From Streptomyces nigrescens (lineage in GTDB: Bacteria; Actinomycetota; Actinomycetes; Streptomycetales; Streptomycetaceae), in contig AP026073.1 in NCBI GenBank assembly GCA_024349765.1, positions 6,076,001-6,140,000 on the forward strand: a stretch of DNA of 64,000 nucleotides, written 5' to 3'. Below are positions 8,831 through 64,000 of the stretch, piece after piece. A program made the translations under genes and the position numbers. The notes beneath the pieces were generated by a model. The model searched no databases, was not told the origin of the DNA, and saw only the letters and a program-made list of their open reading frames with translations. The stretch's first letter is position 1. Each line of letters begins with the position of its first letter.

Positions 8831-8834
8831 AAGC

Positions 8835-9422: not shown

Positions 9423-9501
9423 GACGGCAGCCTAATCGCCGGCATACGCTCGTACCAGACGGGTGTCTTATACGTACGTCTACGGCGACCAGGTCCCTGC
9501 G

Positions 9502-9517: not shown

Positions 9518-9541
9518 TCCTTGAGCACGCCCATGCGCCGG

Positions 9542-10141
9542 TCACCGGCCCCCCTCGCCACCGGGCCCCTCCGCACCCCTCTTCCTCCGCTCCTCAGGGG
9601 GCGTGGCCTCGGGCGTCTGCTCGGTGTCGCGCCGGGTGTCGTCCGGCCGGCCCTCGCGGGTGCGCTCCCCCGCTCCGGCCCCGGCCATCGGCCGGTCGAA
9701 CAGTTTGTTGCGCTCGCCCGGCGTCCGCGGCGAACGCCCGGTCTCCGTTCCGGGACGCGGCCCGGTGGGCCGCACCGCGTTCGTGCCGCCCGGCTCGCCG
9801 TGGGCGGGGTCCGTGGCGACCGGCCGGATCAGCCCGTAGTGGCGGTACAGCTCGGTCTCTTCGGACGGGTCGAGGTGCGCGTCGGCGTCGATCCGCGGGG
9901 CTTTCTTGATCGTCTCCTTGGCGTGCGGAACGTGCAGTTCGTCGCCGGTCCGGCGGGCTCCGGCGAGCGGGATGAACGTCTCCTTCATCCCGAAGAGGCC
10001 GGTGCGCACGGTGATCCACTCGGGCTCGTTGGTGGCGTCGTCCCGGTAGACCTGCTGCACCGTGCCCACCTTCGCGCCGTTCGCGTCGACCACGTGGAGG
10101 CCGGTCAGCTTCTGCGGGGTGTCTCCCAGAGGTGCGTTCAT
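9542..10141 (-). CDS. PRC-barrel domain protein
   Basis: The 199-residue protein starts at an ATG with GGAAGGAG eight bases upstream. Residues 1-90 form a PRC-barrel-like domain (LTGLHVVDANGAKVGTVQQV, then EPEWITVRTGLFGMKETFIP), a small beta-barrel also found in photosynthetic reaction centre H subunits and RimM. It is followed by a short DPSEETELYRHYGL motif typical of these actinobacterial proteins and then by about 85 residues of Pro/Gly/Arg/Glu-rich sequence that is probably disordered. Such proteins are often stress-associated in Streptomyces, but no specific function is known. Confidence 0.8.
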   Translation of the reverse strand: MNAPLGDTPQKLTGLHVVDANGAKVGTVQQVYRDDATNEPEWITVRTGLFGMKETFIPLAGARRTGDELHVPHAKETIKKAPRIDADAHLDPSEETELYRHYGLIRPVATDPAHGEPGGTNAVRPTGPRPGTETGRSPRTPGERNKLFDRPMAGAGAGERTREGRPDDTRRDTEQTPEATPPEERRKRGAEGPGGEGGR

Positions 10142-10429
10142 GGGTCTCGCTCCTTCCGCACGCGCCGGTGCGGCACGCACAGTTCCCATTGCGCGACGCC
10201 CGCTTCCGGCTTGCGACTCGAAAGGCCACGGGAGTGCCGGGCCGGGCGGCCCCGGGAGCCCCCTCGCGGCTCCCCCGACCCCACCCCCCGCTACGCCATT
10301 CGGGTGAATGCCTGACCGGCCGGCCGCACGGGCCGCACCCGCGGGGCGTGCGTACGAGGCCGGCACGCGAACGGGCCCGGACCCCGCCGAAGCGGGAGCC
10401 GGGCCCGTTGACCTGCGAAGACCGTCCGG
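10142..10429. other. Spacer between the PRC-barrel gene and serA with terminator
   Basis: No gene is supported. The right end (10370-10409) contains the serA terminator. The left end holds the Shine-Dalgarno and presumably the promoter of the PRC-barrel gene; no clear -10/-35 pair was identified. Confidence 0.4.
10370..10409 (-). terminator. serA terminator
   Basis: An 11-bp perfect inverted repeat (AACGGGCCCGG / CCGGGCCCGTT) with an inner CCCCG/CGGGA pairing lies 20 bases after the serA stop. No T run. Confidence 0.8.
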
Positions 10430-12022
10430 TCAGTGACCGAGGTTCACCGCGCGTACGGACGTCGCGCCGATCTCCTCGGAGATCTCGTTGAGCACGTTCG
10501 CCGGAATGGTGTCGTCGACGGTCAGCACGACCAGCGCCTCGCCGCCGACGTCGGCCCGGGAGACCTGCATGCCGCCGATGTTGATGCCCGCCTCGCCCAG
10601 GATGCGGCCGACCGTGCCGACGACGCCGGGGCGGTCGGTGTAGCGCATGAACGCCATGTGGTCGGCGAGCGTGAGGTCGATCGAGTGGTCGCCGACCGCC
10701 ACGATCTTCTGGACGTTCTTGTGGCCGGCGAGCGTGCCGGAGATCGACACCTCCTCGCCGCCGGCGAGCGTGCCGCGCACGGTGACCACGTTGCGGTGCT
10801 CGGGCGACTCGCTGCTGGTCGTCAGCCGCACCTCGACGCCGCGCTCCTGCGCGAACAGCGGGGCGTTGACGTAGGACACCGTCTCGTCCACCACGTCCTC
10901 GAACACGCCCTTGAGCGCGGAGAGTTCGAGCACCTTGACGTCGTGCTGGGTGATCTCGCCGTACACCTCGACGTCGAGCCGCATCGCCACCTCGCCGGCC
11001 AGCGCGGTGAAGATCCGGCCGAGCCGCTCGGCCAGCGGCAGCCCGGGCTTGACGTCCTCGGCGATCACGCCGCCCTGGACGTTGACCGCGTCCGGCACCA
11101 GCTCGCCGGCCAGCGCCAGCCGCACCGACTTGGCGACCGCGATACCGGCCTTCTCCTGCGCCTCACCCGTCGAGGCGCCCAGGTGCGGGGTGCACACGAC
11201 CTGGTCGAACTCGAACAGCGGGGAGTCGGTGCAGGGCTCGACGGCGTACACGTCCAGGCCCGCGCCGGCCACCCGGCCCTCCTTGAGCGCGCTGGCCAGC
11301 GCCACCTCGTCGACGATCCCGCCGCGCGCGGCGTTGACGATCCGGACCGACGGCTTGACCTTGTGCAGCGCCTCGTCGCCGATCAGGCCGATGGTCTCCG
11401 GCGTCTTGGGGAGGTGGACGGTGATGAAGTCGGCGACCTCCAGCAGCTCGTCCAGGGTCAGCAGCTTGACGCCCATCTGCGCGGCGCGGGCCGGCTGGAC
11501 GTACGGGTCGTAGGCGACGACCTTCATGCCGAACGCCGACATCCGCTGGGCGACCAGGACGCCGATCCGGCCGAGGCCGACCACACCGAGGGTCTTCTCG
11601 CTGAGCTCGACGCCGGTGTACTTGCTGCGCTTCCACTCGCCGTTCTTGAGCGCGGTGTTGGCCTGCGGGATGTTCCGCGCGGTGGCGACCAGCAGGCCGC
11701 AGGCGAGCTCGGCGGCGGTGACGATGTTGGAGGTCGGGGCGTTGACGACCATCACGCCGGCCTTGGTGGCGGCGGAGACGTCGACGTTGTCCAGGCCCAC
11801 GCCGGCGCGGGCGACGACCTTCAGCTTCTTGGCGGCGGCGATCGCCTCGGCGTCGATCTTCGTGGCGCTGCGCACCAGGACGGCGTCGACGTCGACGATG
11901 GCGGGGAGCAGTTCGGCACGGTCCGCGCCGTTGCAGTGCCGGATCTCGAAGTCCGGGCCGAGGGCGTCGACGGTGGCGGGCGACAGCTCTTCGGCGATCA
12001 GTACGACAGGTTTCGAGCTCAC
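10430..12022 (-). CDS. serA: D-3-phosphoglycerate dehydrogenase
   Basis: This 530-residue enzyme oxidises 3-phosphoglycerate to 3-phosphohydroxypyruvate, the first step of serine synthesis. The N-terminal catalytic halves flank a Rossmann domain (VVGLGRIGVLVAQR), with the catalytic Arg in NAARGGIVDE and the His-containing TPHLGAST. The C-terminal part has the intervening (ASB) domain and a final ACT domain (RYTDRPGVVGTVGRILGEAG), the form that is feedback-inhibited by serine. I chose the GTG at 12022 (product starting SSKPVVLIAEELSP) because it matches the usual N-terminus. It lies downstream of ilvC, separated by a terminator, so it is probably its own unit. Confidence 0.95.
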   Translation of the reverse strand: MSSKPVVLIAEELSPATVDALGPDFEIRHCNGADRAELLPAIVDVDAVLVRSATKIDAEAIAAAKKLKVVARAGVGLDNVDVSAATKAGVMVVNAPTSNIVTAAELACGLLVATARNIPQANTALKNGEWKRSKYTGVELSEKTLGVVGLGRIGVLVAQRMSAFGMKVVAYDPYVQPARAAQMGVKLLTLDELLEVADFITVHLPKTPETIGLIGDEALHKVKPSVRIVNAARGGIVDEVALASALKEGRVAGAGLDVYAVEPCTDSPLFEFDQVVCTPHLGASTGEAQEKAGIAVAKSVRLALAGELVPDAVNVQGGVIAEDVKPGLPLAERLGRIFTALAGEVAMRLDVEVYGEITQHDVKVLELSALKGVFEDVVDETVSYVNAPLFAQERGVEVRLTTSSESPEHRNVVTVRGTLAGGEEVSISGTLAGHKNVQKIVAVGDHSIDLTLADHMAFMRYTDRPGVVGTVGRILGEAGINIGGMQVSRADVGGEALVVLTVDDTIPANVLNEISEEIGATSVRAVNLGH

Positions 12023-12253
12023 GTGGTCTTCAGTCCTCACTAGTCCTTCGCGGACGGCCGTCCCGACGGCCGAAGGCGGTGAAGGGGGAAAGCCGCGTGG
12101 AAGACGCACGACATTGTGAGCCTGAACGCGCTTGTGATGGGCAGTGTAGTGGCGGTGGGGGGCGCGTCCTGTGCCGTTGCGGAAGGATCACCCGTGCGTG
12201 GTTCTACGCGGTGGACAAGGCGCCGCGGCGGAGCGCGGCCGGTCATACGGACG

Positions 12254-12282
12254 AGGGGGCCGCGAGTGTTTCGCGACCCCCT
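12254..12282 (-). terminator. ilvC terminator
   Basis: A stem of AGGGGG / ACCCCCT-type arms plus CGCGA / TCGCG with a short loop, starting 12 bases after the ilvC stop. It ends the ilvBNC transcript before serA. Confidence 0.7.
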
Positions 12283-12293
12283 GTCCACTGCCC

Positions 12294-13929
<1,636 letters not shown>

Positions 13930-13957
13930 GGTCTTCTCTCTTTCGCTCTTCGTCGTC

Positions 13958-15817
13958 TCAGTCGTCTTCGTTGTCGCCGAAGTCGGGACGCACGCCGCGG
14001 GCGGCCATGACCTCGTCGTTGGAGGTGCCGGCGGCGACCATCGGCCACACCTGGGCGTCCTCGTGGACGATGAAGTCGATCACGACCGGGCGGTCGTTGA
14101 TGGCATTGGCCTCTTCGATGACCTTGTCGAGGTCGGCCGGGTCCTCGCAGCGCAGTGCGACGCAGCCCATGGCCTCGGAGAGCTTGACGAAGTCCGGGAT
14201 GCGGGTGCCCGCCGAGGGCTGCTTGCCGTCCGCTTCGGGGCCGCTGTGCAGCACGGTGTTGGAGTAGCGCTGGTTGTAGAAGAGGGTCTGCCACTGGCGG
14301 ACCATGCCCAGCGCGCCGTTGTTGATGATCGCGACCTTGATCGGGATGTTGTTCAGCGCGCAGGTGACCAGTTCCTGGTTGGTCATCTGGAAGCAGCCGT
14401 CACCGTCGATCGCCCAGACCGTGCGGTCCGGCTGGCCGGCCTTGGCGCCCATCGCGGCCGGCACGGCGTAGCCCATGGTCCCGGCGCCGCCGGAGTTGAG
14501 CCAGGTGGCGGGCTGCTCGTACTTGATGAAGTGGGCGGCCCACATCTGGTGCTGGCCGACGCCGGCGGCGTAGATGGTGTCGGCGGGGGCGAGCCTGCCG
14601 ATCCGCTCGATGACCTGCTGCGGGGACAGGCTGCCGTCGTCCGGCAGGTCGTAGCCCAGCGGGTAGGTCTCCCGCCAGCGGTTGAGGTCCTTCCACCAGG
14701 CGCTGTAGTCGCCCTTGTGGCCGGCGTCGTGCTCGGCCTGGACGGCCACGATCAGGTCGGCGATGACCTCGCGGGCGTCACCGACGATCGGCACGTCCGC
14801 GGCGCGGTTCTTGCCGATCTCCGCCGGGTCGATGTCGGCGTGCACGACCTTGGCGTACGGCGCGAAGGAGTCCAGCTTGCCGGTGACCCGGTCGTCGAAG
14901 CGGGCGCCGAGGGTGATCAGCAGGTCGGCCTTCTGCAGCGCGGTGACCGCGGTGACCGAGCCGTGCATGCCGGGCATGCCGACGTGCTGCGGGTGGCTGT
15001 CGGGGAAGGCGCCCAGCGCCATCAGGGTGGTGGTGACCGGGGCGCCGGTCAGCTCGGCGAGCACCTTCAGCTCGGCGGTGGCACCGGCCTTGAGGACGCC
15101 GCCGCCGACGTAGAGCACCGGGCGCTTGGACTCGGCGATCAGCCGGGCGGCCTCACGGATCTGCTTGGCGTGCGGCTTGGTCACCGGGCGGTAGCCGGGC
15201 AGGTCGGTGTGCGGCGGCCAGCTGAACGTGGTCTGCGCCTGCAGGGCGTCCTTGGCGATGTCGACCAGGACCGGGCCGGGACGGCCGGTGGACGCGATGT
15301 GGAACGCCTCGGCGATCGTCTTGGGGATCTCGGCCGGGTCGGTGACCAGGAAGTTGTGCTTGGTGATCGGCATCGTGATGCCGCAGATGTCCGCCTCCTG
15401 GAAGGCGTCCGTGCCGATCGCCTTCGACGCCACCTGACCGGTGATCGCGACCAGCGGGACGGAGTCCATGTGGGCGTCCGCGATCGGGGTGACGAGGTTG
15501 GTGGCACCCGGGCCCGAGGTGGCCATGCAGACCCCGACCTTGCCGGTGGCCTGCGCGTATCCCGTGGCGGCGTGTCCGGCGCCCTGCTCGTGGCGGACGA
15601 GGATGTGCCGGACCTTCGAGGAGTCCATCATCGGGTCGTACGCCGGCAGGATCGCACCGCCGGGGATGCCGAACACGGTGTCGGCCCCGACCTCCTCCAG
15701 CGCACGGATGAGGGACTGCGCGCCCGTGACGTGCTCGACGGTGGCGGTCGGCTGCGGTCCGCCGGCGTTACGGGCCCGCGGCTGCGGATGGTGGGCCCCG
15801 GAGGCCTGCTCGGTCAT
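13958..15817 (-). CDS. ilvB: Acetolactate synthase large subunit
   Basis: A 619-residue thiamine-diphosphate and FAD enzyme that condenses two pyruvates, or pyruvate with 2-oxobutyrate, at the start of branched-chain amino acid synthesis. The catalytic glutamate sits in [14 protein letters not shown], and the ThDP/Mg2+ motif is [19 protein letters not shown]. The ATG at 15817 ([10 protein letters not shown]) has GAGAAGAG eight bases upstream; the frame is open upstream but that part is the leader region. Expression is very likely set by the leader peptide and attenuator at 15875-15993. Confidence 0.97.
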
Positions 15818-15874
15818 CTGCGTCTCTTCTCGAAGCTGAGGGTTTTGACGGGATTTGTGAGGTTGCTGTGCAAC

Positions 15875-15908
15875 AAAAAACCCCTCGTGCCGGGTGGCAA
15901 GCGAGGGG
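15875..15908 (-). terminator. ilvB attenuator (Rho-independent terminator in the leader)
   Basis: Read on the minus strand, CCCCTCG pairs with CGAGGGG and TGCC with GGCA inside, followed at once by six T residues (15875-15880). A T-run terminator is rare in this genome. It lies between the leader peptide stop (15952) and ilvB (15817), exactly where transcription attenuation would act. Confidence 0.85.
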
Positions 15909-15951
15909 AGCGCGTCGGTGCGGTCTGCTGGGCGGCGTAAGGGGCCCAGCT

Positions 15952-15993
15952 TCAGCCGACGCGCTTTCCAAGTACGAGAATTCGGGTGCGCAT
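15952..15993 (-). CDS. ilvB leader peptide, 13 aa
   Basis: ATG at 15993 with GGAGGG eight bases upstream opens the 13-codon frame [13 protein letters not shown], which ends in TGA. It contains consecutive Ile-Leu-Val and a further Leu and Val, the three amino acids made by the downstream pathway. Ribosome stalling at these codons when branched-chain aminoacyl-tRNAs are scarce would allow an antiterminator to form and block the hairpin at 15875-15908. I recall such a leader upstream of ilvB in other Streptomyces; the coding call here rests on the sequence itself. Confidence 0.85.
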
Positions 15994-16026
15994 GGCACTG
16001 ACCCTCCCCCTCTCGTGCACCGAGTG

Positions 16027-19000
16027 TCAAGTGGGTGGGACGGAGGTCTCACTATTTGAGCGCAATGGGGGATGCACCATGGCCTCCGGACCGGCCAGAC
16101 CCCCACGTCGGGCGGGCACTCCGCTGCCGCTGAGCACCACCGCGCGCCCCTGTCCCGCGTGGTCGGGAACGGGGTAACCGGTACGGGTCAGCGCCCGGCG
16201 CAGCCGGTGCTCGTCGAGCGGGCCGGAGAAGGCCAGGCCCATGCCGTGCGTGCAGCCCATGGAGCGCAGCGCGAGGACCTGTTCGGGCAGGTCGACGCCG
16301 TCCGCGACGGTCTGCATGCCCAGGTCGCCGGCGATCCGCAGCAGTCCGGCGGTGATCTTGTGCAGCCGGGAGGACTCCACCACGCCGTCGACCAGGCCGC
16401 GGTCCAGCCGCAGGACGTCGACGGGCAGCCGGCGCAGCGCGGTGATCGCGGCGTACCCGCTGCCGAAGCCGTCGAGGGCGATCCGTACGCCGAGCCGGCG
16501 CAGGGCGACCAGCCGGCGCTCCAGGTCGTCCAGCGGGATCCGGGAGTCACTTTCGGACAGTTCCAGGACGAGCTCCCGGGCGGGCAGGCCGTGCCGGGTG
16601 AGGAGCGCTTCGACACCCTTGGGGGACAGCGCGCGGTCCAGCAGCCGGCGGGCGGAGAGCCGGACCGCGACCGGGATCTGATGGCCGGCGCGGTGGCGCG
16701 CGGCGGCCTGCCGGACGGCCTCCTCCAGCTGCCAGCGGTCGAGCTCCGCGGCGCGGTCGCCGCCGTCGGTGTACCGGCCGCGGTCCCCGACCCGGAGGAA
16801 TTCGGCGGGGGTGAACAGGATGCCCTCGGCGGAGCGCCAGCGGGCGTGCGCGGCGACCGCGGTGACCCGCCCGGTGGCCAGGTCGACCACGGGCTGGTGC
16901 AGCAGCGCGAATTCGCCCTCGTTGAGGGCCGTGCGGAGCTTGGAGGCGAGCTCGGCGCGGTGCGCGACCTCGTCCTGCATCTGGGGGGCGTAGAGCTCGA
17001 CCCGGCCCTTGCCGGCCTGCTTGGCGCGGTACATCGCGAGGTCGGCGTTGCGGAGCAGGCCGGCGGGGGTGACGCCCGGTTCGGCGAAGGCGACGCCGAT
17101 GCTGGCCGCCACGCGGACGTCCCGGCCGTCGATGCGGTACGGCTCGGAGAGCTTGATGCGCAGCCGGTCGGCGATCTCGTGGATGCGGAACTCGCGGGCC
17201 GCGCGGTCGCGGGTGCCGTCGCCGGTGATCAGCGCGGCGAATTCGTCGCCGCCCAGCCGGGCCGCTATGTCGCCGGCGCGGACCGAGTCGGCGAGCCGGC
17301 GGGCGGCCTGGATCAGCAGTTCGTCGCCGGCCTGGTGGCCGATGGTGTCGTTGACCTGCTTGAAGCCGTCGAGGTCGATGTAGAGCACGGCGGTGTCGTG
17401 GTCACTGGCCCGCCGGCCGGTGACGGCCTGGGTGACGCGTTCGGTGAACAGCGCGCGGTTGGGCAGATCGGTGAGCGCGTCGTGCGAGGCGTTGTGCTGG
17501 AGCTGGGCCTGGAGCCGGACGCGTTCGGTGACGTCGCGGGAGTTGAAGATCAGGCCGCCGTGGTGGCGGTTGACCGTGGACTCGACGTTCAGCCAGCCGT
17601 CGACGCCGGAGCGCTGTCCGCCGGCGCGGAAGCGGCATTCGATGCGGGTGGTCGGCTCGTCCTGCGGATCGGCGGCGAGGAACCGGCGGACCTCGTGCAC
17701 CACCCGGCCGAGGTCCTCGGGGTGGATCAGCGTGGCGAGTTCGGAGCCGATCAGCTCCTCCGCGTCGCGGCCGTAGACGCCGGCGGCGGCCGGGCTGACG
17801 TAGCGCAGCACGCCGGAGGGCGCGGCGATCATGATGACGTCGCTGGAGCCCTGCACCAGGGAGCGGAAGTGGTTCTCCTTCTGGGCGAGTTCGTGGGTCA
17901 GGGTGATGTTGTCGAGCAGCATGATCCCCTGGCGGACGACCAGGGCGAGCACGACCGTGCAGCCGGTGAAGAGGACCACGCGGTCGATCCGCCGCCCGTC
18001 GAGAACGTTGGTGAGGATGCCCAGGGTGCAGACCGCGGCGGCCAGATACGGGGTGAGCGCGGCGAGCGAGCCGGCGAGCGGACGGCTGCCGTGCGGGACG
18101 CGGACGGCGGCGGGCTCGGCGAGCTCCTCCGGCTCCTCCTCCTCGGCCCGGCGGGCGACCCACGGCGCGTACGCGAGCAGCATCGAACCGGCGAACCACC
18201 CGGCGTCCAGGATCTGCCCGGAGCGGTAGTGCTCGCGCAGCAGCGGGGAGCTGAACAGGGCGTCGCACAGCACCGTCAGCGCGAGCGCGGCGATGGCGGT
18301 GTTGACGGCCGAGCGGTGCACCGAGGAGCGCCGGAAGTGCAGGACCAGGACCATGCTGACGAGCACGATGTCCAGCAGCGGATAGGCCAGTGACAGGGCG
18401 CTCTGCGCCACGCTGCGGCCCTGGAAGTGGGCGGTGTGCGCGAGCGCGAGGCTCCAGGAGAGGGTGAGGAGCGAGCCGGCGATCAGCCAGGAGTCCAGGC
18501 CCAGGCAGACCCAGCCGGCCCGGCTCACCGGGCGCTTGGCGAGCACCAGCAGGCCGACGATGGCCGGCGGCGCGAACAGCAGGAAGCAGAAGTCGGCCGG
18601 CGAGGGGCTGGGCACGGTCTCGCCCAGGATGACCTCGTACCAGCCCCATACGCCGTTGCCGATGCCGGCCATCCCCGAGGAGGCGGCGAACAGCATCCAG
18701 GCCGGCCGGAACCGGCTGCGGTGCCGGCGGGCGTACAGACCACAGGAGAAGGCCGCGACCAGGGCCGCGAAGCTGAGGCCGAAGTCCCCCATGAACAGGG
18801 CGACTTCGGTGGACCCCCAGCCGAAGGCGGCACCGAGGGCGTAGCCGCCGCAGACCACGGCCAGGACGACCTGTGGCACCGGGCTCGGCGGACTGCCGGC
18901 CGGCGTCGGTGGCCTGGAGAGCATCGCCCCGGGGGCGCTCACCGCACTCTCCCGTGGTCCCGTGTCGTCCGGCGCCTCGCACGGGGCGCCCGGTGGTCCC

Positions 19001-55096: not shown

Positions 55097-56281
55097 TCAG
55101 GTGATCGCCAGACCGTCGAGGAAGCCCCGGACGTTGCGGCGGGTCTCGGCCACGCTGTCACCCCCGAATTTCTCCACTATTGCGTCGGCGAGGACGAGGG
55201 CGACCATGGCCTCGGCGACGATCCCGGCGGCCGGCACCGCGCAGACGTCGGAGCGCTGGTGGTGGGCCCGGGCCGCCTCGCCGGTGCGCAGGTCCACCGT
55301 CGCCAGCGCCCGCGGCACGGTCGCGATCGGCTTCATCGCCGCCCGCACCCGCAGCAGTTCACCAGTGGTCAGGCCGCCCTCGGTACCGCCGGCGCGGCCG
55401 GAGACGCGCCGGATGCCCTCGGGCGTGTTGACGATCTCGTCGTGCGCCGTTGAGCCCGGCACCCGCGCCAGGTCGAAGCCGTCACCGACCTCCACGCCCT
55501 TGATCGCCTGGATACCCATGAGCGCGGCGGCGAGCCGGGCGTCCAGACGGCGGTCCCAGTGGACGTGCGAGCCCAGGCCCACCGGCACCCCGTAGGCCAG
55601 CACCTCGACCACACCGCCCAGGGTGTCGCCGTCCTTGTGGGCCTGGTCGATCTCCGCGACCATCGCCTTCGAGGCGTCCGCGTCCAGGCAGCGCACCGGG
55701 TCCGCGTCCAGCTTCCCGGCGTCGGAGGGCTTGGGGTGGACGCCGTGGGGCGCCTTGGCCGCCGCCAGCTCGACGACGTGCGAGACGATCTCGATCCCGG
55801 CGGTCTCCGTCAGGAAGGAACGCGCCACCGCGCCCAGCGCCACCCGGGCCGCGGTCTCCCGGGCCGAGGCGCGCTCCAGGATCGGGCGGGCCTCGTCGAA
55901 GCCGTACTTCTGCATGCCGGCCAGGTCGGCGTGACCGGGGCGGGGACGGGTCAGCGGGGCGTTGCGGGCCAGGGACGCGAGCTCCGCCTCGTCCACCGGG
56001 TCGGCCGCCATCACCCGCTCCCACTTGGGCCACTCGGTGTTGCCGACCATGATCGCCACGGGCGAGCCCAGCGAGCGGCCGTGCCGCACGCCGCCCAGGA
56101 ACGTGACCTCGTCCCGCTCGAAGGCCATGCGCGCGCCGCGGCCGTAGCCCAGCCGGCGGCGCGCCAGGGCGTCCGCCACGACGTCGGTGGTGATCGGGAC
56201 GCCGGCCGGAAGGCCCTCCAGCGTCGCCACCAGCGCGGGGCCGTGCGACTCCCCCGCCGTCAGCCAGCGCAGCCTGCTCAA
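55097..56281 (-). CDS. aroC: Chorismate synthase (cluster-associated copy)
   Basis: The 394-residue FMN-dependent enzyme converts EPSP to chorismate. Family motifs are present: [57 protein letters not shown] and [20 protein letters not shown]. The product normally begins [14 protein letters not shown], and here that codon is TTG at 56281, overlapping the preceding monooxygenase stop by four bases (TTGA), so translation is coupled. Housekeeping aroC in Streptomyces sits with aroK and aroB; here it ends an operon with aroA, transketolase and a PhzE-like gene, which suggests a dedicated copy for a secondary metabolite. Confidence 0.93.
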
Positions 56282-57468
56282 CGGTCCGCTCCGGCGCCGA
56301 AGTCCCGTTCGCCGTGCAGCCATTGGACGGTGTCGTACAGGTCGTCCACGGTCATCGCGGCGAGCATGGCGTTGCGCTCGCGGGCCGCCTCGCCGGCCGG
56401 GTGGTAGAGCTGCCGGCCCATCTCCCGGGCCACCAGCTGGGTCCTGGCGGTGCGTTCGTGCCGGACCGCGTGGTACTTCTCCAGGCGCTGGACGACGTCG
56501 GCGGCCGGGCCGTCGAGGAGTGTGCCGAGCACCACCGCGTCCTCCAGGGCCTGGCAGGCGCCCTGGGCGGCGTACTGGAGCATCGGGTGCGCGGCGTCGC
56601 CGAGGAGGGCCACCCGGCCGTCGGTCCAGCGGTCGGCCGGGTCGCGGTCGCACAGCACCCAGGCCTTCCAGTTCTCGCCCAGCTCCAGCAGCCGGCGGGC
56701 GGTGGTGCCGAGGTCCGGGAATTCGGCGAGCACCCGGTCGCGGTCGGCGGGCACACCGGCCACCGCCTCGGTCGCGCCGTCGTCGCGGGTCGCGGCGAGG
56801 TTGAGGAACTCACCGCCGCCGACGGGATAGTGGACGAAGTGCCACTTGGGTCCGGCCCACAGCGTGACGGTGTTCCAGCGCAGGTCCTCGGGGACCTTGG
56901 CCATGGGGATGACGGAGCGGTAGATGGTGTGGCCGGAGACCCGGGGGTCGCCGTCGCCGAGGAGCTGGCCGCGGACGGTGGAGCGGATGCCGTCGGCGCC
57001 GATGAGCGCGTCCCCGGTGAGCCGTTCGCCGCCGGCGAGCACGGCGGTGACCGAGCCGGCGTCCTGCTCGTAGCGGACGACCGGGCTGTCGGTGCGCAGT
57101 TCGATGCCCTCGGTGGCCCGGCAGGCGGCCAGCAGCGGCTCGTACAGGCAGGTGCGGTGGACCACGGCGTAGGGGTTGCGGAAGCGGGTGCGGTAGGCGC
57201 CGGTGAGCGGCATCGACTGGACCTGGCGGTCGGTGGTGCCGTCCATGAAGCGCAACTCGTCGATGAAGACGGCCCGTTCGCGGACCGCGTCGCCGACGCC
57301 GAGCCGGTCCAGGGCGTGGAAGGCGTTGGGGCCGAGCTGGATGCCGGCGCCGAGTTCGGTGAAGGAGTCCCGGCGTTCCAGGACGGTCACCCGGTGTCCG
57401 TGCCGGGCGGTGGCCAGTGCCGCCGCGAGGCCGCCCACGCCGCCGCCGGCGATGAGTATCTTCGCCAT
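56278..57468 (-). CDS. FAD-dependent aromatic monooxygenase (3-hydroxybenzoate 6-hydroxylase-like)
   Basis: A 396-residue class A flavoprotein hydroxylase. The N-terminal dinucleotide fold is [20 protein letters not shown], the middle DG motif is [17 protein letters not shown], and the second FAD motif [20 protein letters not shown]. The Gln-Tyr after GDAAHPML and [13 protein letters not shown] resemble 3-hydroxybenzoate 6-hydroxylase and salicylate hydroxylase relatives. In this cluster the substrate is probably a hydroxylated aminobenzoate such as 3-hydroxyanthranilate, an inference from context. ATG at 57468 with AAAGG upstream. Confidence 0.9.
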
Positions 57469-57520
57469 GTCATGCCTTTCGTTGCGTAGTTGTGCGCGCG
57501 TTGCAGAGCCGCGGCGGTGG

Positions 57521-58774
57521 TCACACGGCGGGTGCGTGCGCCGCGTGCGCCGGGAAGCAGCGCCGCAGTGCGGTGTGGAAGCCGGGGAAGGTCTTGCTGA
57601 CGCAGCCGGGGTCGTCGAGCGTGATGCCGGGGGCGCGCAGGGCCAGCACGGAGAAGGCCATGGCGATCCGGTGGTCGCGGTGGCAGGCGACGGTGGCCGG
57701 GCGCGGGGTGCCGGGGTGCACGGTGATCCGGTCCGGGCCGGTCTCGACGGTGATGCCGAGCGCCCGGAGGTTGCCGGCGACCGCGTCGATGCGGTCGGAC
57801 TCCTTGAGCCGGGCGTGGCCGATGCCGTGCAGGGTGAGCGGGGCGTCGGCGAGCGGGGCGATCGCGGCCAGCGTCATGAACGTGTCGGAGATGTCGCCCA
57901 TGTCGAGGGCGAAGCCGCCGCGCAGCGGGCCGGTGCCGGTGACCGTGGTGGCGTGCTCGCCGATCTCGACCGCCGCGCCGGTGCGGCGCAGCGCCGTGAC
58001 GAACCGCAGGTCGCCCTGGAGGCTGTGCCGGCCGAGGCCGGGGACGGTGATCCGGCTGCCGGTGACGGCGGCCGCCGCGAAGAAGTACGAGGCGGTGGAG
58101 GCGTCCGGTTCGATGTGCAGGTCGGTGGCGCGGTAGCGGCCGGGGCGTACGGTCAGCGCGCCGTCCGGGCCGGTCTCGGCGGGGACGCCGAAGTGCCGCA
58201 TCAGGGCCAGCGTCAGGTCGAGGTAGGGGCGGCTGACCAGCCCGGCCGTGCGCAGCGTCAGCGGGGTGCGCAGCAGCGGCGCGGCGAGCAGCAGGCCGCT
58301 GAGGTACTGGCTGCTGAGCGAGCCGTCCAGGGTCAGTTCGCCGCCGTCCAGGCCGGCGGCGTCCACGGTCAGCGGGAGGCCGCCGCCGGGCGCCGTGGTG
58401 ATCCGGGCGCCGAGCGCGCGCAGTGCGTCGGTCAGCGGGCGCAGCGGGCGGGCCCGCAGCCGGTCGCTGCCGTCGAAGGCGTAACTGCCGGTGCCGGTGG
58501 CGGCGAACGGCGGCAGGAAGCGGGCGGCGGTGCCGGCGTCGGCGCACCGGACGCGGTGGCCGCCGGCCGGGCCGCGGCCGGTGCCGGTGACCTCCCAGGT
58601 GGCGTCGCCGGGCCCGGCCGTGATCGTGGTGCCGAGGCCGGTCAGCGCGTCGCGGAAGGCGACCGTGTCGTCGCTGACCAGCGGGGCGTGCAGGGTGGAG
58701 CGGCCGTCGGCGGCCGCGGCCAGCAGCAGGGCCCGGTTGGTGATGCTCTTGGAGCCGGGGACGGTGACCTTCAT
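57521..58774 (-). CDS. aroA: 3-phosphoshikimate 1-carboxyvinyltransferase (EPSP synthase)
   Basis: A 417-residue two-domain enzyme joining phosphoenolpyruvate to shikimate-3-phosphate. Signatures are PGSKSITNRALLLAA at the start, DAGTAARFLPPFAA, and the C-terminal RLKESDRIDAVAGNLRALG. The ATG at 58774 overlaps the transketolase stop (ATGA). As with aroC, it is a cluster copy feeding chorismate. The conserved Gly and Ala near DAGTAARF look normal; herbicide sensitivity class was not judged. Confidence 0.95.
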   Translation of the reverse strand: MKVTVPGSKSITNRALLLAAAADGRSTLHAPLVSDDTVAFRDALTGLGTTITAGPGDATWEVTGTGRGPAGGHRVRCADAGTAARFLPPFAATGTGSYAFDGSDRLRARPLRPLTDALRALGARITTAPGGGLPLTVDAAGLDGGELTLDGSLSSQYLSGLLLAAPLLRTPLTLRTAGLVSRPYLDLTLALMRHFGVPAETGPDGALTVRPGRYRATDLHIEPDASTASYFFAAAAVTGSRITVPGLGRHSLQGDLRFVTALRRTGAAVEIGEHATTVTGTGPLRGGFALDMGDISDTFMTLAAIAPLADAPLTLHGIGHARLKESDRIDAVAGNLRALGITVETGPDRITVHPGTPRPATVACHRDHRIAMAFSVLALRAPGITLDDPGCVSKTFPGFHTALRRCFPAHAAHAPAV

Positions 58775-60939
58775 CGGGTGTGCTCCCGGTGGCGGTCGCG
58801 GACCCGGGCGAGCGAGGCGCGGGCGGCCGCGGCGACCCGAGTGGCGGTCAGTCCGTACTGCTCGTACAGCGCCTGGTAGGGCGCCGACGCACCGAACCGG
58901 TCCAGGCCCAGGGCGGCTCCGGCGTCGCCGACCAGGGCGTGCCAGCCGAGGACCGAGCCGGCCTCGACGGAGATCCGGGCCGGGACGTCCGGCGGCAGCA
59001 CCTGGTCGCGGTACTCCTGGCTCTGCGCGCGGAACCACTCCAGGCAGGGCAGGGAGACCACACGGGCGGCGATTCCCTCGTCGTGCAGCAGGCGCTGGGC
59101 CTCCAGGGCGATGTGCACCTCGCTGCCGGTGCCGAGGAGGACGACGTCCGGGGTGGTGGGGGTGCCCTCGGGGGTGCGGGCCTCGGCGAGGACGTAGCCG
59201 CCCCGGGCCACGCCGTCGGCCGGGGCCAGGCCGGTGCCGGGCGAGCGGTCGAGGACGGGCAGGTTCTGCCGGGTCAGGCAGAGGCCGGCGGGCCGGTCGG
59301 TGTGCGTGAGGACGGTACGCCAGGCGATCGCGGTCTCGTTGGCGTCGGCGGGGCGGACGACGTCGAGGCCGGGGATGCCGCGCAGCGACCAGAGGTGTTC
59401 CACGGGCTGGTGGGTGGGCCCGTCCTCGCCGAGCCCGATGGAGTCGTGGGTCCAGACGTAGGTGACGGGCAGCCGCATCATGGCGGCGAGCCGGACGGCG
59501 GGGCGCATGTAGTCGGAGAACACCAGGAAGGTGCCGCCGTAGGGGCGGGTGCCGCCGTGCAGGGCGATGCCGTTGAGGACCGCGCCCATGGCGTGTTCGC
59601 GGATGCCGAAGTGCAGGGTGCGGCCGTAGCGGTGGCCGGGGAACGCGTCGGTGGCGAACTCCTCGGGCACGAAGGAGGGTTGGCCGGGCATGGTGGTGTT
59701 GTTGGACTCGGCGAGGTCGGCCGAGCCGCCCCACAGCTCCGGCAGGGTGTCGGCGAGCGCGGCGAGCACCGCGCCGGACGCCTTGCGGGTGGCCATCTCC
59801 TGACCGGGGGCGAACTCCGGGAGCGCCGCCCGCCAGTCGTCGGGCAGGGTGCGGGCGGCGATCCGGTCGTGAGCGGCGGCCCGCCGGGGGAATGCGGACC
59901 GCCAGTCCTGGTGGCGCCGTTCCCACTCCGCGCGCAGGGCCCGGCCGCGGACGCCGGCCTGGCGGGTCCGTTCGAGCACCTCGGCGGGGACGTGGAAGGA
60001 GCGCGCGGGGTCGAGCCCCATGGCGGCCTTGGTGGCGGCCGCCTCGTCGGCGCCGAGCGCGGCGCCGTGGATCTTGCCGGTGTTCTGCTTGCCCGGTGAG
60101 GGCCAGCCGATGAGGGTGCGCAGCGCGACGAGCGAGGGGCGGCCGGTCTCCGCGCGGGCGGCGACGAGCGCCCGGTGGAGGGCGGGCACGTCCTCGTAGT
60201 AGCCGTCGCCGCTGGTCCAGTCGACGTGCTGGACGTGCCAGCCGTAGGCGGCGAACCGGGCGAGGGCGTCCTCGGACTGGGCGATGCGGGTGTCGTCCTC
60301 GATGGAGATGCGGTTGTCGTCGTAGAGGACGACGAGGTTGCCGAGGCGCTGGTGGCCGGCGAGCGAGCCGGCCTCGTGGCTGAGGCCCTCGGCGAGGTCA
60401 CCGTCGGAGACGAACGCCCAGATGGTGTGGTCGAAGGGGCTGGTGCCCTCGGGGGCGTCGGGGTCGAACAGGCCGCGTTCGCGGCGGGCGGCCATGGCCA
60501 TGCCGACGGCGTTGCCCAGGCCCTGGCCGAGCGGGCCGGTGGTGGTCTCCACGCCCGGGGTGTGACCGAATTCGGGGTGGGCGGGGGTCAGACTGCCGGC
60601 GGTGCGCAGGGACTTGAGGTCGTCCAGCGTCAGCCCGTAGCCGGAGAGGTAGAGCTGGATGTAGAGGGTGAGGCTGGCGTGGCCGCAGGAGAGGACGAAG
60701 CGGTCCCGGCCGGCCCACCGCGGGTCGGCGGGGTCGTGCCGCAGCAGCCGCTGGAAGAGCAGGTGGGCGGCCGGGGCCAGGCTCATGGCGGTGCCGGGGT
60801 GGCCGTGGCCGGCGCGTTCGACGGCGTCGACGGCGAGCGCGCGGGCGGTGTCCACGGCGCGGCGGTCGAGGGCGGTCCACTCCAGGGGGGCGGTGGTGCC
60901 GGCGGGCTCGGGGGCGGGGGCGGTGGGTGCGGTGGTCAT
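58771..60939 (-). CDS. tkt: Transketolase
   Basis: A 722-residue thiamine-diphosphate enzyme interconverting pentose and triose/hexose phosphates and giving erythrose-4-phosphate, a shikimate precursor. Seen in order: GHGHPGTAMSLAPAAHLLFQ, the cofactor motif SDGDLAEGLSHEAGSLAGHQ with VVLYDDNRISIED, GIREHAMGAVLNGIALHGG and HDSIGLGEDGPTHQPVEHLW. Length equals housekeeping transketolases. The ATG at 60939 overlaps the SDR stop by one base (TGATG). Presence in this operon implies flux supply to the aromatic product. Confidence 0.95.
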   Translation of the reverse strand: MTTAPTAPAPEPAGTTAPLEWTALDRRAVDTARALAVDAVERAGHGHPGTAMSLAPAAHLLFQRLLRHDPADPRWAGRDRFVLSCGHASLTLYIQLYLSGYGLTLDDLKSLRTAGSLTPAHPEFGHTPGVETTTGPLGQGLGNAVGMAMAARRERGLFDPDAPEGTSPFDHTIWAFVSDGDLAEGLSHEAGSLAGHQRLGNLVVLYDDNRISIEDDTRIAQSEDALARFAAYGWHVQHVDWTSGDGYYEDVPALHRALVAARAETGRPSLVALRTLIGWPSPGKQNTGKIHGAALGADEAAATKAAMGLDPARSFHVPAEVLERTRQAGVRGRALRAEWERRHQDWRSAFPRRAAAHDRIAARTLPDDWRAALPEFAPGQEMATRKASGAVLAALADTLPELWGGSADLAESNNTTMPGQPSFVPEEFATDAFPGHRYGRTLHFGIREHAMGAVLNGIALHGGTRPYGGTFLVFSDYMRPAVRLAAMMRLPVTYVWTHDSIGLGEDGPTHQPVEHLWSLRGIPGLDVVRPADANETAIAWRTVLTHTDRPAGLCLTRQNLPVLDRSPGTGLAPADGVARGGYVLAEARTPEGTPTTPDVVLLGTGSEVHIALEAQRLLHDEGIAARVVSLPCLEWFRAQSQEYRDQVLPPDVPARISVEAGSVLGWHALVGDAGAALGLDRFGASAPYQALYEQYGLTATRVAAAARASLARVRDRHREHTR

Positions 60940-61664
60940 CAGGCGGCTCGCTTCCGGTCGAGGACGAGGTCGTGGCCGACGACGTACGAGGACTCGTCCG
61001 AGCAGAGCCAGACCACGGAGTCGGCGATCTCGTCGGCGGTGGCGTGGCCGGGGCCGGCCGGGCGGGGCCCGGCGGCGGGTCCGTCGACCGGGCCGGGGCT
61101 GATGGCGTTGATGCGGATGCCCTCGGAGATGTACTCGCCGGCGGCCGCGCGGGTCAGGGTGGTCAGGGCGGCCTTGGAGGCGGCGTAGGCGCCGAGGCCG
61201 GGGCGGAGGCCGTTGCTGAGGAGGTTGCAGGCGGTGTTGACGATGACCCCGCCGCGGTGCTCCTTCATGTAGGCGATCTCGTGCTTCATGGACGTCCACA
61301 CGCCGGTGAGGTTGTGGGCGAGCAGTTCGGTCCAGACGGTCTCGCAGGTCTCGGCGACCGGGCGGGCCGGGCCGGTGACGGTGACGTTGTTGAAGGCGAT
61401 GTCGAGTCCGCCGCAGCGCTCCACCGCGACCGCGACCATCCGCTCGGCGGCCTCGGGGCCGCCGCGGGTCACATCGGCCACCACCCGCTCGGCGCGGCCG
61501 CCGGCCCGGCGGATGGTGGCGACGGTGGCGTCCAGGGTCCGGGCGTCCGGTCCGGCGACCACGACGGTCGCGCCCTGGCGGGCGAAGGCGAGCGCGCCGG
61601 CCCGGCCGATGGCGTCGTCGCCACCGGCGACGAGCGCGACCTTGCCGTCGAATCGTGCGGGCAT
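60939..61664 (-). CDS. SDR, possibly a dihydro-hydroxyanthranilate dehydrogenase, with altered motifs
   Basis: A 241-residue SDR starting at ATG 61664 with GGAG seven bases upstream. The cofactor motif is VAGGDDAIG in place of TGxxxGIG, NNAG is NNVT, and the position 13 before the catalytic Tyr 160 (YAASK) is Asn 147 in NTACNLLS where the catalytic Ser is expected. The fold is otherwise normal, with GIRINAISPGPV near the end. In phenazine-like or 2,3-dihydroxybenzoate pathways an SDR oxidises the dihydro acid to the aromatic; that role is inferred. Confidence 0.8.
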   Translation of the reverse strand: MPARFDGKVALVAGGDDAIGRAGALAFARQGATVVVAGPDARTLDATVATIRRAGGRAERVVADVTRGGPEAAERMVAVAVERCGGLDIAFNNVTVTGPARPVAETCETVWTELLAHNLTGVWTSMKHEIAYMKEHRGGVIVNTACNLLSNGLRPGLGAYAASKAALTTLTRAAAGEYISEGIRINAISPGPVDGPAAGPRPAGPGHATADEIADSVVWLCSDESSYVVGHDLVLDRKRAA

Positions 61665-61939
61665 TGTGCTTCTCCTGTTTCCGCTGGGCCGGCGGCAGCC
61701 GGCGGGATGCCGTGGCATGAACTCTGGTTGCCGGCCGCCTTTTCGGACAACGGTGGCAACGGCACTCCGTCAAAAGCCCGGTACTCCGTCAGATGCCGCG
61801 GGTGGCCGGGCCGGAAAGGCCGCGGCGCGCAGCCCGGAAGGGTTTCTTCCGGCCCGGCGCCGCGGCGGTTTTCCGGGATCGCTGATATTCCGTGGGTGCT
61901 GGATTCGGGGCGTTCCGGTTTCCGGCGGTACCCGGCCGG
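61665..61939. other. Spacer between the SDR and the YdhR-like gene
   Basis: No gene is supported. The right part contains the hairpin at 61820-61865; the left part holds the SDR ribosome site and probably a promoter, so the SDR-tkt-aroA-FMO-aroC set may also be transcribed on its own. Confidence 0.45.
61820..61865 (-). terminator. Nested stem-loop after the YdhR-like gene
   Basis: Outer arms CCGCGGCGC (61820-61828) and GCGCCGCGG (61857-61865) enclose an inner hairpin CCGGAAG / CTTCCGG with a 5-base loop. It lies 75 bases after the stop at 61940 on the minus strand. Confidence 0.65.
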
Positions 61940-62272
61940 TCACCGTGCGAAGGCGAGTCCCAGCCCGGTCAGGTCGGGGATGGTGTGCTCCCCCTCGGTG
62001 GCCGCCTCGACGTGGAAGCGGTGCACCACGGTGGGTGGGTAGCCGATGAGTTCGGCGGCCCGGGTGGGCAGCGGCCGGCTCGCGGCCGCCTCCGATTCCC
62101 ACAGGAAGACCGCGCCCCAGCCGCCGCCCCCGGCGTCCGAGATCCAGAATTTCATCCGGAGCCCGGGCCACCGGGAAAAGCGTTCGACCGCCTCGTCCCG
62201 CAGGAATTCCCTCAGCGTTCGCGGGGTCTGGTCGGATTCCGCGAGGTCCCACCAGGCGATGACCGCTTTCAC
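61940..62272 (-). CDS. YdhR-like dimeric alpha/beta-barrel protein
   Basis: A 110-residue protein beginning MKAVIAWWDLAESDQTPRTL, with a central GLRMKFWISDAGGGGWGAVF and a PLPTRAAELIGYPP segment. This is the pattern of small ferredoxin-like dimeric barrels related to YdhR/ABM-type monooxygenases, which occur in secondary-metabolite clusters as cofactor-free oxygenases, cyclases or accessory proteins. The GTG at 62272 overlaps the PhzE-like stop (GTGA). Specific function unknown. Confidence 0.7.
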   Translation of the reverse strand: MKAVIAWWDLAESDQTPRTLREFLRDEAVERFSRWPGLRMKFWISDAGGGGWGAVFLWESEAAASRPLPTRAAELIGYPPTVVHRFHVEAATEGEHTIPDLTGLGLAFAR

Positions 62273-64000
62273 CGGGCGATCGCCTCCTTCTGCGCCAGGA
62301 TTTCGGCGAGCAGTCCGCTGACGATGCGGACGCCGTCCTCGGTCAGCACGGATTCCGAATGGAACTGCATCGACGCGAATCCGGGTCCGCGCAGCGCGTG
62401 CACCTCGCCGGATTCCGGGTCCCGGCTGATCTCGACCACCCCGGCCGGGGTCTCCGCCTTGTCCTCGGTGCTGTGCGCGGCGAAGGTGTTGTAGAACCCG
62501 ACCCGCACCCGGTCGCCGAAGAGGTCGACGGTCCGCTGGACGCCCTGGTTGGGGACCGCGCGGCGGACCAGGTCGAGGCCGAGCAGGGTGCTGAGCACCT
62601 GGTGGCTGAGGCAGACCGCGAGGAACGGCCGCCGCTCGTCGAGGAGTTGGCTGATCGCGGTCCGCAGGTGGGCGATCTTGGGGTGGCCGGTCTCCCGCGG
62701 ATCGCCCGGGCCGGGCCCCATCACCACCAGGTCGTACCCGTCGAAGGAGTACGGCTCGTCGAAGCGGCGTACGGTCACCGTGAGGCCCATGGAGCGCAGC
62801 TGGTGGTCGATCATCGAGGTGAAGGTGTCCTCGGCGTCGACGACCAGCACCCGCCGGCCGCTGAGCCCGGCGACGGCCCGGCCGGTCCGGTCCTCCTCGG
62901 CGGCGAGCCAGAACCCGGCGATGGTGGCGTTGCGTTCGGCCAGCGCCGCCTGCACGGTGGCGTGTCCGCCGAACCGCCCGCGTCCCGGTTCCGCCAGTGC
63001 GGACAGCAGCCCGGCGGCCTTGGCGCGGGTCTCGGCGACCTCGGAGAGCGGGTCGGAGTGGCGTACGAGGGTGGCGCCGACGCCGATCCGGACCCGGCCG
63101 CGCGGGTCGAGCTCCGCGGTCCGGATGAGGATCGCCGAGTCGAGCGTGCGGCCGCCGGCCGCGTCCCGTCCGATCAGGGCGGCGACGCCGCTGTAGTAGC
63201 CGCGGCCGGCCGGCTCGTAGCGGGCCACCACCCGGGCCGCGCTCTCCAGGGGGCTGCCGGTGACGGTGGGCGCGAACAGCGTCTCGTGCAGGATCTCCCG
63301 CACGTCGCGGGTGGTGTGGCCCTCGATGAAGTACTCGGTGTGCGCGAGCCGGGCCATCTCCCGCAGGTACGGCCCGACGACCCGGCCGCCGGACTCGCAG
63401 ATCCGGGCCATCATCTTCAGCTCTTCGTCGACGACCATGTACAGCTCGTCGGCCTCCTTGCGGTCGGCGAGGAATTCCATGACCTCGGGCAGGGTGGGCC
63501 CGGCGGGCGGGTAGCGGTAGGTGCCGCTGATCGGGTTCATCACGGCCTTGCCGCCGTGCACGCTGATGTGCCGCTCCGGCGAGGCGCCGACGAACGTCCG
63601 CCCGCCGGTGTGCACCAGGAACGTCCAGTACGCCCCGGCCTCGCGCTCCAGCAGCCGCCGGAAGAAGGTCAGCGCGCTGTGCGGCCCGTAGTCGGTGATG
63701 TCGGTGACGAAGGACCGCTTGATGACGAAGTTGGCGCCCTCGCCGGTGCCGATCTCCTCGGCGATGATCCGGCGCACGGTGGCCGCGTAGGCGTCGTCGT
63801 CGACGTCGAACGCCCCGTCGGACAGCGTGATCGGGACGTCGGGGATGCGGGCCAGCGCCTCGGCGACCGGCACCGTGTCCTGTTCCTCGACGGTGAGGGT
63901 GATCAGCGGTGCGCCGTCGTCGGGGGCGTCGAAGCCGCGCTCGGCGAGCTGGCGGTAGGGGATGAGGGCGAGCACCTCGTGCCGGGCGCCGGCGTCGTCC
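62269..64000 (-). CDS. PhzE-like 2-amino-2-deoxyisochorismate synthase, 5' truncated
   Basis: The frame is open to the window edge and 577 C-terminal residues are visible. It holds most of an anthranilate-synthase-like chorismate-binding domain (EEIGTGEGANFVIKRSF, GSPLESAARVVARYEPAGRG, IRTAELDPRGRVRIGVGATL) fused to a glutamine amidotransferase (VVMGPGPGDP, catalytic Cys in AVCLSHQVL, His and Glu in FHSESVL). This fused order, plus the preceding ALIPYRQLAERGFDAPDDGA segment, is characteristic of PhzE, which makes ADIC from chorismate and glutamine. ADIC can go to phenazines, 3-hydroxyanthranilate or benzoxazolinate. No isochorismatase (PhzD) is in view; it may lie beyond the edge. Confidence 0.88.
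   Translation of the reverse strand, partial: DDAGARHEVLALIPYRQLAERGFDAPDDGAPLITLTVEEQDTVPVAEALARIPDVPITLSDGAFDVDDDAYAATVRRIIAEEIGTGEGANFVIKRSFVTDITDYGPHSALTFFRRLLEREAGAYWTFLVHTGGRTFVGASPERHISVHGGKAVMNPISGTYRYPPAGPTLPEVMEFLADRKEADELYMVVDEELKMMARICESGGRVVGPYLREMARLAHTEYFIEGHTTRDVREILHETLFAPTVTGSPLESAARVVARYEPAGRGYYSGVAALIGRDAAGGRTLDSAILIRTAELDPRGRVRIGVGATLVRHSDPLSEVAETRAKAAGLLSALAEPGRGRFGGHATVQAALAERNATIAGFWLAAEEDRTGRAVAGLSGRRVLVVDAEDTFTSMIDHQLRSMGLTVTVRRFDEPYSFDGYDLVVMGPGPGDPRETGHPKIAHLRTAISQLLDERRPFLAVCLSHQVLSTLLGLDLVRRAVPNQGVQRTVDLFGDRVRVGFYNTFAAHSTEDKAETPAGVVEISRDPESGEVHALRGPGFASMQFHSESVLTEDGVRIVSGLLAEILAQKEAIAR

Follow-up and report, generated by a model that had tools for sequence, protein, structure and literature searches.

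We analyzed a 64,000-nucleotide (nt) stretch of Streptomyces nigrescens DNA (G000:C1:6076001-6140000, hereafter the window) from a 9.33-Mb genome in two contigs (label G000). An earlier note, made from the letters alone, described near the end of the window genes for transketolase (Tkt), EPSP synthase (AroA), chorismate synthase (AroC), a PhzE-like enzyme, an SDR oxidoreductase, an aromatic hydroxylase, and a small protein. It took them for what looked like the start of an unfamiliar cluster, in which chorismate would be turned into a dihydroxylated anthranilate building block, perhaps oxidized to an aminoquinone. All seven genes were confirmed on the minus strand between positions 55097 and 64000. 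The operon, however, starts beyond position 64000, so that the window covers its 3′ end. The described 1- to 4-base overlaps held at four of the six junctions: 4 nt at PhzE/NosA-like (the small protein, see below), 1 nt at SDR2/Tkt, 4 nt at Tkt/AroA, and 4 nt at FAD hydroxylase (FMO)/AroC, provided that AroC starts at TTG. They did not hold between the NosA-like gene and SDR2 (a gap of 275 nt, or 221 nt with a GTG start) and between AroA and FMO (52 nt).

Genes beyond the window were called in the flanking DNA of both sides with a codon-usage script, and all genes called in 55097-87770 were run against NCBIfam or Pfam (Table 1). The gene set is best explained as one biosynthetic cluster of approximately 32.7 kb (55097-87770), of which only 55097-64000 lies in the window. 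The earlier note had named phzD, a DAHP synthase (DAHPS), nonribosomal peptide synthetase (NRPS) or polyketide synthase (PKS) genes, and a prenyltransferase as genes that might follow. The first two were found just beyond position 64000, together with a gene for a DhbA-type dehydrogenase; no NRPS, modular PKS, or prenyltransferase gene is among those called up to 87770. The contrast that the note drew with phenazine clusters, which bring PhzC, falls away because this cluster brings a class II DAHPS.

Table 1. Genes of the cluster. Positions are in window numbering (position 1 is the first letter of the window), which is continued beyond 64000.
Gene or product	Position	Strand or orientation	Match or remark
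AroC, chorismate synthase	55097-56281	-	TIGR00033, 452 bits vs cut-off 212; probable TTG start; last operon gene
FAD hydroxylase (FMO), 3-hydroxybenzoate 6-hydroxylase type	56278-57468	-	NF006021, 483 vs 459
AroA, EPSP synthase, cluster-specific type	57521-58774	-	TIGR01356, 369 vs cut-off 287
Transketolase (Tkt), extra copy, predicted erythrose-4-phosphate supply	58771-60939	-	TIGR00232, 736 bits vs 682
SDR oxidoreductase (SDR2), 241 aa from ATG	60939-61664 (61718 if GTG)	-	Pfam adh_short_C2, 1.7e-41
NosA-family protein, 110 aa	61940-62272	-	PDB 4za1 (NosA), E 1.9e-23
PhzE, ADIC synthase, 634 aa	62269-64173 (cut by the window end at 64000)	-	PDB 3r74; Pfam chorismate_bind and GATase
PhzD	64170-64814	operon continuation upstream	PDB 1nf9, E 1.1e-90
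DhbA-type SDR dehydrogenase	64844-65617	operon continuation upstream	TIGR04316, 347 bits vs 300
Class II DAHP synthase	65675-66766	operon continuation upstream	363 aa as called; start may lie further out, since relatives measure 381-404 aa
KAS III	67162-68127	divergent from operon	
Arylamine N-acyltransferase (NAT)	68204-68989	divergent from operon	
MFS exporter	69040-70245	divergent from operon	best NCBIfam Cmx/CmrA, below cut-off
Gene without Pfam match, then DUF5753 gene	between 70245 and 72418		
FAD monooxygenase	72418-73533		best match Tet(X), far below cut-off
TetR regulator	73644-74285		
Second MFS gene	74357-75814		
SDR3	76057-76815		
Cupin	76863-77351		
Amidohydrolase-2 (Amh2)	77390-78364		
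Small LuxR protein	78571-78846		
Third MFS gene	78846-80075		
Transaldolase-type protein	80307-81422		
PabAB	81435-83519		
Methyltransferase	83519-84232		
PucR-type regulator	84542-86476		
DDE-transposase-like protein	86502-87770		

The core of the operon is a front end for 3-hydroxyanthranilate (3-HAA). PhzE matched PDB entry 3r74 over residues 4-626 (E 1.6e-231); this entry is listed as component I of an anthranilate/p-aminobenzoate synthase, and we take it to be PhzE. PhzE, PhzD, and the DhbA-type dehydrogenase are encoded together in operon order and without PhzF, as is characteristic of the route from chorismate through 2,3-dihydro-3-hydroxyanthranilate (DHHA). Since these three enzymes stand together with a class II DAHPS, formation of 3-HAA by this route is expected, and the gene content strongly indicates the sequence chorismate, 2-amino-2-deoxyisochorismate (ADIC), DHHA, 3-HAA. 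To compare loci, 80 named loci were fetched using the NosA-like protein as a query, with flanks of 10 kb at most. PhzE (at least 50% identity) was present in 69 of the 80, accompanied by DhbA in 44, by PhzF in 23, by neither in 2, and by both in none, so that DhbA and PhzF were mutually exclusive in this set. The individual reactions have been demonstrated elsewhere: Lim6 and Lim5 convert chorismate to ADIC and DHHA (PMC5958127), and Pau20 and six further dehydrogenases convert DHHA to 3-HAA (PMC8097395).

PhzE-like proteins are widespread in the genus. The genome encodes a second one at G000:C1:1561911-1563644 (L002; L011:8909-10864), which is 58% identical, and PhzE matches at E 1e-150 or better were found in 361 of 384 genus genomes. 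Nearly every Streptomyces genome thus seems to encode a PhzE-like protein.

Assignment of the FMO to the 3-hydroxybenzoate 6-hydroxylase (3HB6H) type, as made in the earlier note, was upheld: the protein passes the NCBIfam family for 3-hydroxybenzoate 6-monooxygenase (Table 1). Its residues H210, Y214, and Q298 align with H213, Y217, and Q301 of PDB entry 4bjy, listed as a probable salicylate monooxygenase. We take this entry to be the Rhodococcus 3HB6H, in which these three residues presumably act. The position of Q298 is occupied by proline in 8x38, a decarboxylative vanillate 1-hydroxylase, and in 8r2t. The FMO likely hydroxylates 3-HAA at C6, para to the 3-hydroxyl group, which would give 2-amino-3,6-dihydroxybenzoate.

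The shikimate-pathway genes of the operon are extra copies, since other copies occur in the genome: aroC at C1:2320981 (91% identical), aroA at C1:6455147 (40%), and tkt at C1:1786734 (63%). The possibility raised in the earlier note that aroA and aroC might be the only copies thus does not apply; nor is the sequence beyond 64000 limited to tryptophan and folate genes, although PabAB is among them. Comparison across loci, restricted to proteins longer than 80% of the query, showed that the cluster AroA shares 66-73% identity with its counterparts in 21 other loci and 97% with those in two near-identical ones, whereas these 23 proteins share only 34-40% identity with the genome's other AroA. 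Similarly, Tkt is 76-81% identical to counterparts in seven loci and 97-99% in two; identity of these nine proteins to the second Tkt of the genome is 60-64%. AroA and Tkt are therefore pathway-type copies, being far closer to their counterparts in such clusters than to the other copies of their own genome. The cluster AroC may be a recent duplicate. In related clusters (L086, L091, L092), aroK and aroE are also present, and L086 and L092 additionally carry aroB, amounting to a nearly private shikimate pathway.

The borders of the cluster were judged in 83 loci, comprising the 80 named loci and 3 plasmid loci, with markers scored at a minimum of 45% identity and 60% coverage. Counterparts of AroC were found in 11 of the 83 loci and counterparts of the DDE-transposase-like protein in 6. 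Beyond 87770, none of the called genes reached 45% identity in any locus of the set. At the other border, genes for a glutamate dehydrogenase and a LOG-family protein lie below 55097 and were matched solely in the near-identical strains L071 and L072. The grouping of the genes is not due to chance, since 44 of the 80 loci share PhzE and DhbA and 39 of these 44 add the FMO. SDR2 (at least 50% identity) occurred in 10 of the 44 DhbA-type loci. The DDE-transposase-like protein, scored at 40% identity or more, was found in 11 of the 44 (L073, L074, L080, L081, L083, L086, L088, L091, L092, L107, and L127), 8 of which also encode a PucR-type regulator. Because it recurs in these clusters, it may serve them.

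The SDR3-cupin-Amh2 block was counted as part of the cluster because one locus, L144 (Streptomyces sp. UNOC14_S4, 1706-16046), combines both blocks in a single run of approximately 14 kb. This run contains DAHPS, DhbA, PhzD, PhzE, NosA-like, KAS III, NAT, and MFS genes as well as an unlabeled gene, SDR3 (61%), cupin (80%), Amh2 (76%), a LuxR-like gene, AroA, and FMO. In a survey of the 384 genomes, the coordinates of the top 13 Amh2 hits and of the top 9 cupin hits were compared with those of PhzE hits. For nine of the 13 Amh2 hits, PhzE is no more than 15 kb away (G000, G194, G181, G328, G074, G257, G196, G062, and G032); three others are on contigs other than the listed PhzE (G250, G071, and G331), and the last (G301) is separated from it by over 4 Mb. 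For the cupin, six of the nine hits are within 16.1 kb of PhzE (G000, G194, G181, G328, G257, and G074), and the remaining three (G289, G122, and G028) showed no linkage to a PhzE listed for their contig. Amh2 and the cupin of the near relative G194 are placed as in the genome studied here.

The small protein encoded after PhzE was described in the earlier note as YdhR-like. It misses the cut-off of the Pfam family ydhR (PF08803; 24.5 vs 27.1), and its clear PDB match is NosA, the terminal amide synthase of nosiheptide. It belongs to the same sequence family and keeps both catalytic residues: K41 and E89 (counted by hand along the 4za1 alignment) align with K49 and E101 of NosA and are invariant in an alignment of 24 sequences. 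Alanine mutants of NosA K49 and E101 are inactive, and the enzyme is proposed to release pyruvate from the dehydroalanine end of nosiheptide (PMC4525488). NosA has 151 aa as opposed to 110 aa here; its C-terminal loop 112-151, which is important for substrate binding (PMC4525488), is absent from the cluster protein. No thiopeptide genes were recognized near the NosA-like gene.

Eleven of the 80 loci lack PhzE at 50% identity in the compared DNA, one of them (L103) being a short contig with phenazine genes. Conversely, among the 30 best PhzE loci of the genus, no more than 11 carry a NosA-like gene in their 1.5-kb flanks, indicating that this protein is an accessory that PhzE does not require. 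On plasmids of Rhizobium and Burkholderia, too, its gene is found after PhzE. The sets on R. leguminosarum plasmid pCC283b_4 (L152) and B. ubonensis plasmid pMSMB2035 (L151) comprise PhzD, PhzE, and NosA-like genes together with PhzF and a pyridoxal-phosphate-synthase-type (PhzG-like) gene; L152 adds asparagine synthase, PhzA/B, and methyltransferase genes, as for a phenazine amide. In Nocardiopsis metallicus (L116) and N. prasina (L118), the NosA-like gene lies between aroC and aroK-aroB, and no PhzE is labeled in the 20 kb compared. The retained catalytic residues, the occurrence in both 3-HAA and phenazine clusters, usually just after PhzE, and the Nocardiopsis context lead us to suggest, with considerable doubt, that the protein represents a new branch of the NosA family in chorismate-derived pathways. 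It might hydrolyze a pyruvate imine or an enolpyruvyl group linked through N or O, much as NosA acts on the dehydroalanine of nosiheptide, and in this way help PhzD to release pyruvate or repair pyruvate adducts of DHHA or 3-HAA.

Several of the remaining genes could act after 3-HAA. The best PDB match of Amh2 is an unnamed metal-dependent hydrolase (2f6k, 7.6e-36), followed by decarboxylases acting on 5-carboxyvanillate (1.1e-29), gamma-resorcylate (1.1e-26), and 2-amino-3-carboxymuconate semialdehyde (5e-20); H11, H13, H158, H160, H210, and D277 are invariant in six sequences. Amh2 is thus likely an aromatic decarboxylase of the amidohydrolase-2 family. Arylamine N-acyltransferases were matched by NAT in the PDB search, and its C70/H107/D124 triad is invariant in 10 sequences. 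Equally invariant are the C109/H248/N278 triad of KAS III (6 sequences) and the H58/H60/E65/H99 set (3-His-1-Glu) of the cupin (11 sequences). From their families, we assume that the two triads are catalytic and that the cupin set binds a metal. YxaG/quercetin 2,3-dioxygenase entries were the best PDB matches of the cupin (2.8e-22, and 2h0v with 3e-22). The fungal cupin AtyE, which acts together with an SDR, epoxidizes a hydroquinone (PMC12356543).

A pathway can be proposed from these genes, in which the steps to 3-HAA are strong and the later ones are deduced from enzyme families. Tkt and probably the transaldolase-type protein would supply erythrose-4-phosphate, and the class II DAHPS, AroA, and AroC would supplement the shikimate pathway to chorismate. 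PhzE, PhzD, and the DhbA-type dehydrogenase would then produce 3-HAA, near which steps the NosA-like protein might, at a guess, clear a pyruvate-derived enamine or enolpyruvyl group. After the likely C6 hydroxylation by the FMO, Amh2 could decarboxylate the product to an aminohydroquinone, and NAT could acylate the amine with an acyl group prepared or handed over by KAS III. Finally, the cupin may oxidize or epoxidize the hydroquinone, and the adjacent SDR3 may reduce the resulting quinone or epoxyquinone. As the end product we favor, with modest confidence, an N-acyl aminoepoxyquinol or aminoquinone resembling LL-C10037alpha. The latter derives from 3-HAA through 2,5-dihydroxyacetanilide, and the predicted intermediates (3-HAA, N-acyl aminohydroquinone, epoxyquinone, and reduced epoxyquinol) match that route. 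The proposal of the earlier note, a secondary-metabolism gene set directing chorismate into a hydroxylated anthranilate, is thus supported, and a product of the aminoquinone type fits the genes best.

Several points weigh against this scheme. Tkt, PabAB, and SDR2 were not seen in the compared L144 sequence. The genes at 70321-75814 part the SDR3-cupin-Amh2 block from the exporter gene by approximately 5.8 kb, and, save for two genes in near-identical strains, they have no 45% match in the 83 loci. The vanillate 1-hydroxylase 8x38 is a slightly better match of the FMO than 4bjy (E 1.6e-58 vs 3.6e-56), and we considered that the FMO might itself be a decarboxylative hydroxylase; the glutamine in place of proline and the passed 3HB6H cut-off make this less likely. 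Since the condensing triad of KAS III is intact, the amine may receive something other than a simple acetyl. Similar cupins are widespread, with matches at E 1e-15 in 223 of the 384 genomes, and the one described here could make a quinone or cleave the ring instead of epoxidizing. The scheme gives no step to SDR2 or the Tet(X)-like monooxygenase, nor to PabAB and the methyltransferase. The genes of the latter two overlap by 1 nt and were found in one and the same set of 12 among the 83 loci, 11 of the 12 being DhbA-type; they could serve a second precursor or provide a self-resistance copy.

An N-acylated aminobenzoquinone without an epoxide, the type of structure found in the abenquines, is a possible but clearly less probable product. 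The cupin would then only oxidize the hydroquinone, the SDR would recycle or reduce the quinone, and a nucleophile would add to it. The N-acyltransferase and the decarboxylase fit this outcome equally well, and the PDB hits of the cupin include RemF (1.5e-9) and a cupin of tetracenomycin synthesis (3.4e-4). Moreover, the cupins TcmJ and MomA make quinones only (PMC12356543). Two observations point to epoxidation, though neither is decisive: the best PDB matches of the cupin are of the quercetin dioxygenase type, and 6 of the 44 DhbA-type loci have both the cupin (at least 30% identity) and SDR3 (at least 50%), as would be expected of an epoxidase-reductase pair.

We consider it unlikely that the carboxyl group is retained, as in ring A of paulomycin, with Amh2, the cupin, and SDR3 belonging to a separate neighboring pathway. 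Paulomycin uses the same five-gene module, pau17-21 (PMC4425429), and the distance of the SDR3-cupin-Amh2 block from the exporter gene would suit such a division. In addition, 39 of the 44 DhbA-type loci have no Amh2 at 60% identity in the compared DNA, a figure that undercounts Amh2 because the flanks reach 10 kb at most; the genome of L071 (G194), for instance, has Amh2 approximately 14.7 kb from PhzE. On the other side, L144 has both blocks in one run, most of the best Amh2 hits lie near PhzE, and no glycosyltransferase is among the genes of 55097-87770. A phenazine, pyrrolobenzodiazepine, or benzoxazole cluster is very improbable: DAHPS, PhzD, and PhzE are common to those pathways (PMC5958127), but the genes called in 55097-87770 include no phzF, phzG, phzA/B, or NRPS gene, and DhbA and PhzF never co-occurred in the 80 loci. 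That the genes form a primary shikimate, tryptophan, or folate operon is hardly credible, for although tkt, aroA, aroC, and pabAB encode primary-pathway enzymes by family, the genome has other aroC, aroA, and tkt copies, AroA and Tkt are of the pathway type, and the genes sit among those for a hydroxylase, an acyltransferase, exporters, and regulators.

The 3-HAA front end is less unfamiliar than the earlier note supposed, having a close precedent in paulomycin biosynthesis. Genes pau17-pau21 of Streptomyces paulus, compared here by their descriptions, share the 3HB6H-type hydroxylase, PhzE, PhzD, the DhbA-type dehydrogenase, and DAHPS; they were proposed to form ring A, and inactivation of pau18 abolished production (PMC4425429). 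Paulomycin also has a quinone-like ring, and its cluster contains a KAS III (PMC4802897). In comparison, the cluster described here adds tkt, aroA, aroC, the NosA-like gene, NAT, the likely decarboxylase, and the cupin, and no glycosyltransferase, C-glycosyltransferase, or deoxysugar genes were found among those annotated in 55097-87770. The limazepine genes lim3-lim6 likewise encode homologues of DAHPS, a DHHA oxidoreductase, PhzD, and PhzE for 3-HAA (PMC5958127); that pathway proceeds to a benzodiazepine made by an NRPS, whereas none was found in this cluster. The foxicin cluster yields an acylated aminoquinone in Streptomyces, like the product predicted here, and was considered for its wide distribution; however, its Table 1 contains PKS/NRPS genes but has no entry annotated as PhzE, PhzD, DAHPS, AroA, or AroC (PMC5318452). 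The epoxyquinone butuanimide was set aside as well, being derived from phenylalanine and made by a PKS-NRPS. Among the matches listed, no titles or abstract openings described a gene cluster for abenquines, enaminomycins, or epoxyquinomicin, and no cluster of this whole make-up was described in the open-licence literature searched (subscription papers were outside its scope). With its front half known, the whole gene combination appears to be a variant of 3-HAA-derived quinoid clusters.

The cluster family provides candidate genes for an epoxidase (cupin), a reductase (SDR3), a decarboxylase (Amh2), and an acyltransferase (NAT). Among them may be the genes of a bacterial dihydroxyacetanilide epoxidase, an enzyme so far known by its activity. 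The 2,5-dihydroxyacetanilide epoxidases DHAE I and II of the LL-C10037alpha pathway were described in 1991 by activity, and a 2025 paper (PMC12356543) still names them by no more than their reaction; the link between them and the cluster rests on the predicted chemistry. The cluster also ties an enzyme family of thiopeptide biosynthesis to chorismate chemistry. Finally, 3-HAA formation followed by 6-hydroxylation emerges as a recurring module, after which pathways may diverge in how they treat the carboxyl group. In the 44 DhbA-type loci, Amh2 occurs in 5 and an asparagine-synthase-type amidotransferase (AsnB) in 7. The two co-occur in none of the 44, which is close to the chance expectation of approximately 0.8 and carries no weight on its own. 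Decarboxylation by Amh2 and conversion by the AsnB-type amidotransferase may represent two such branches.

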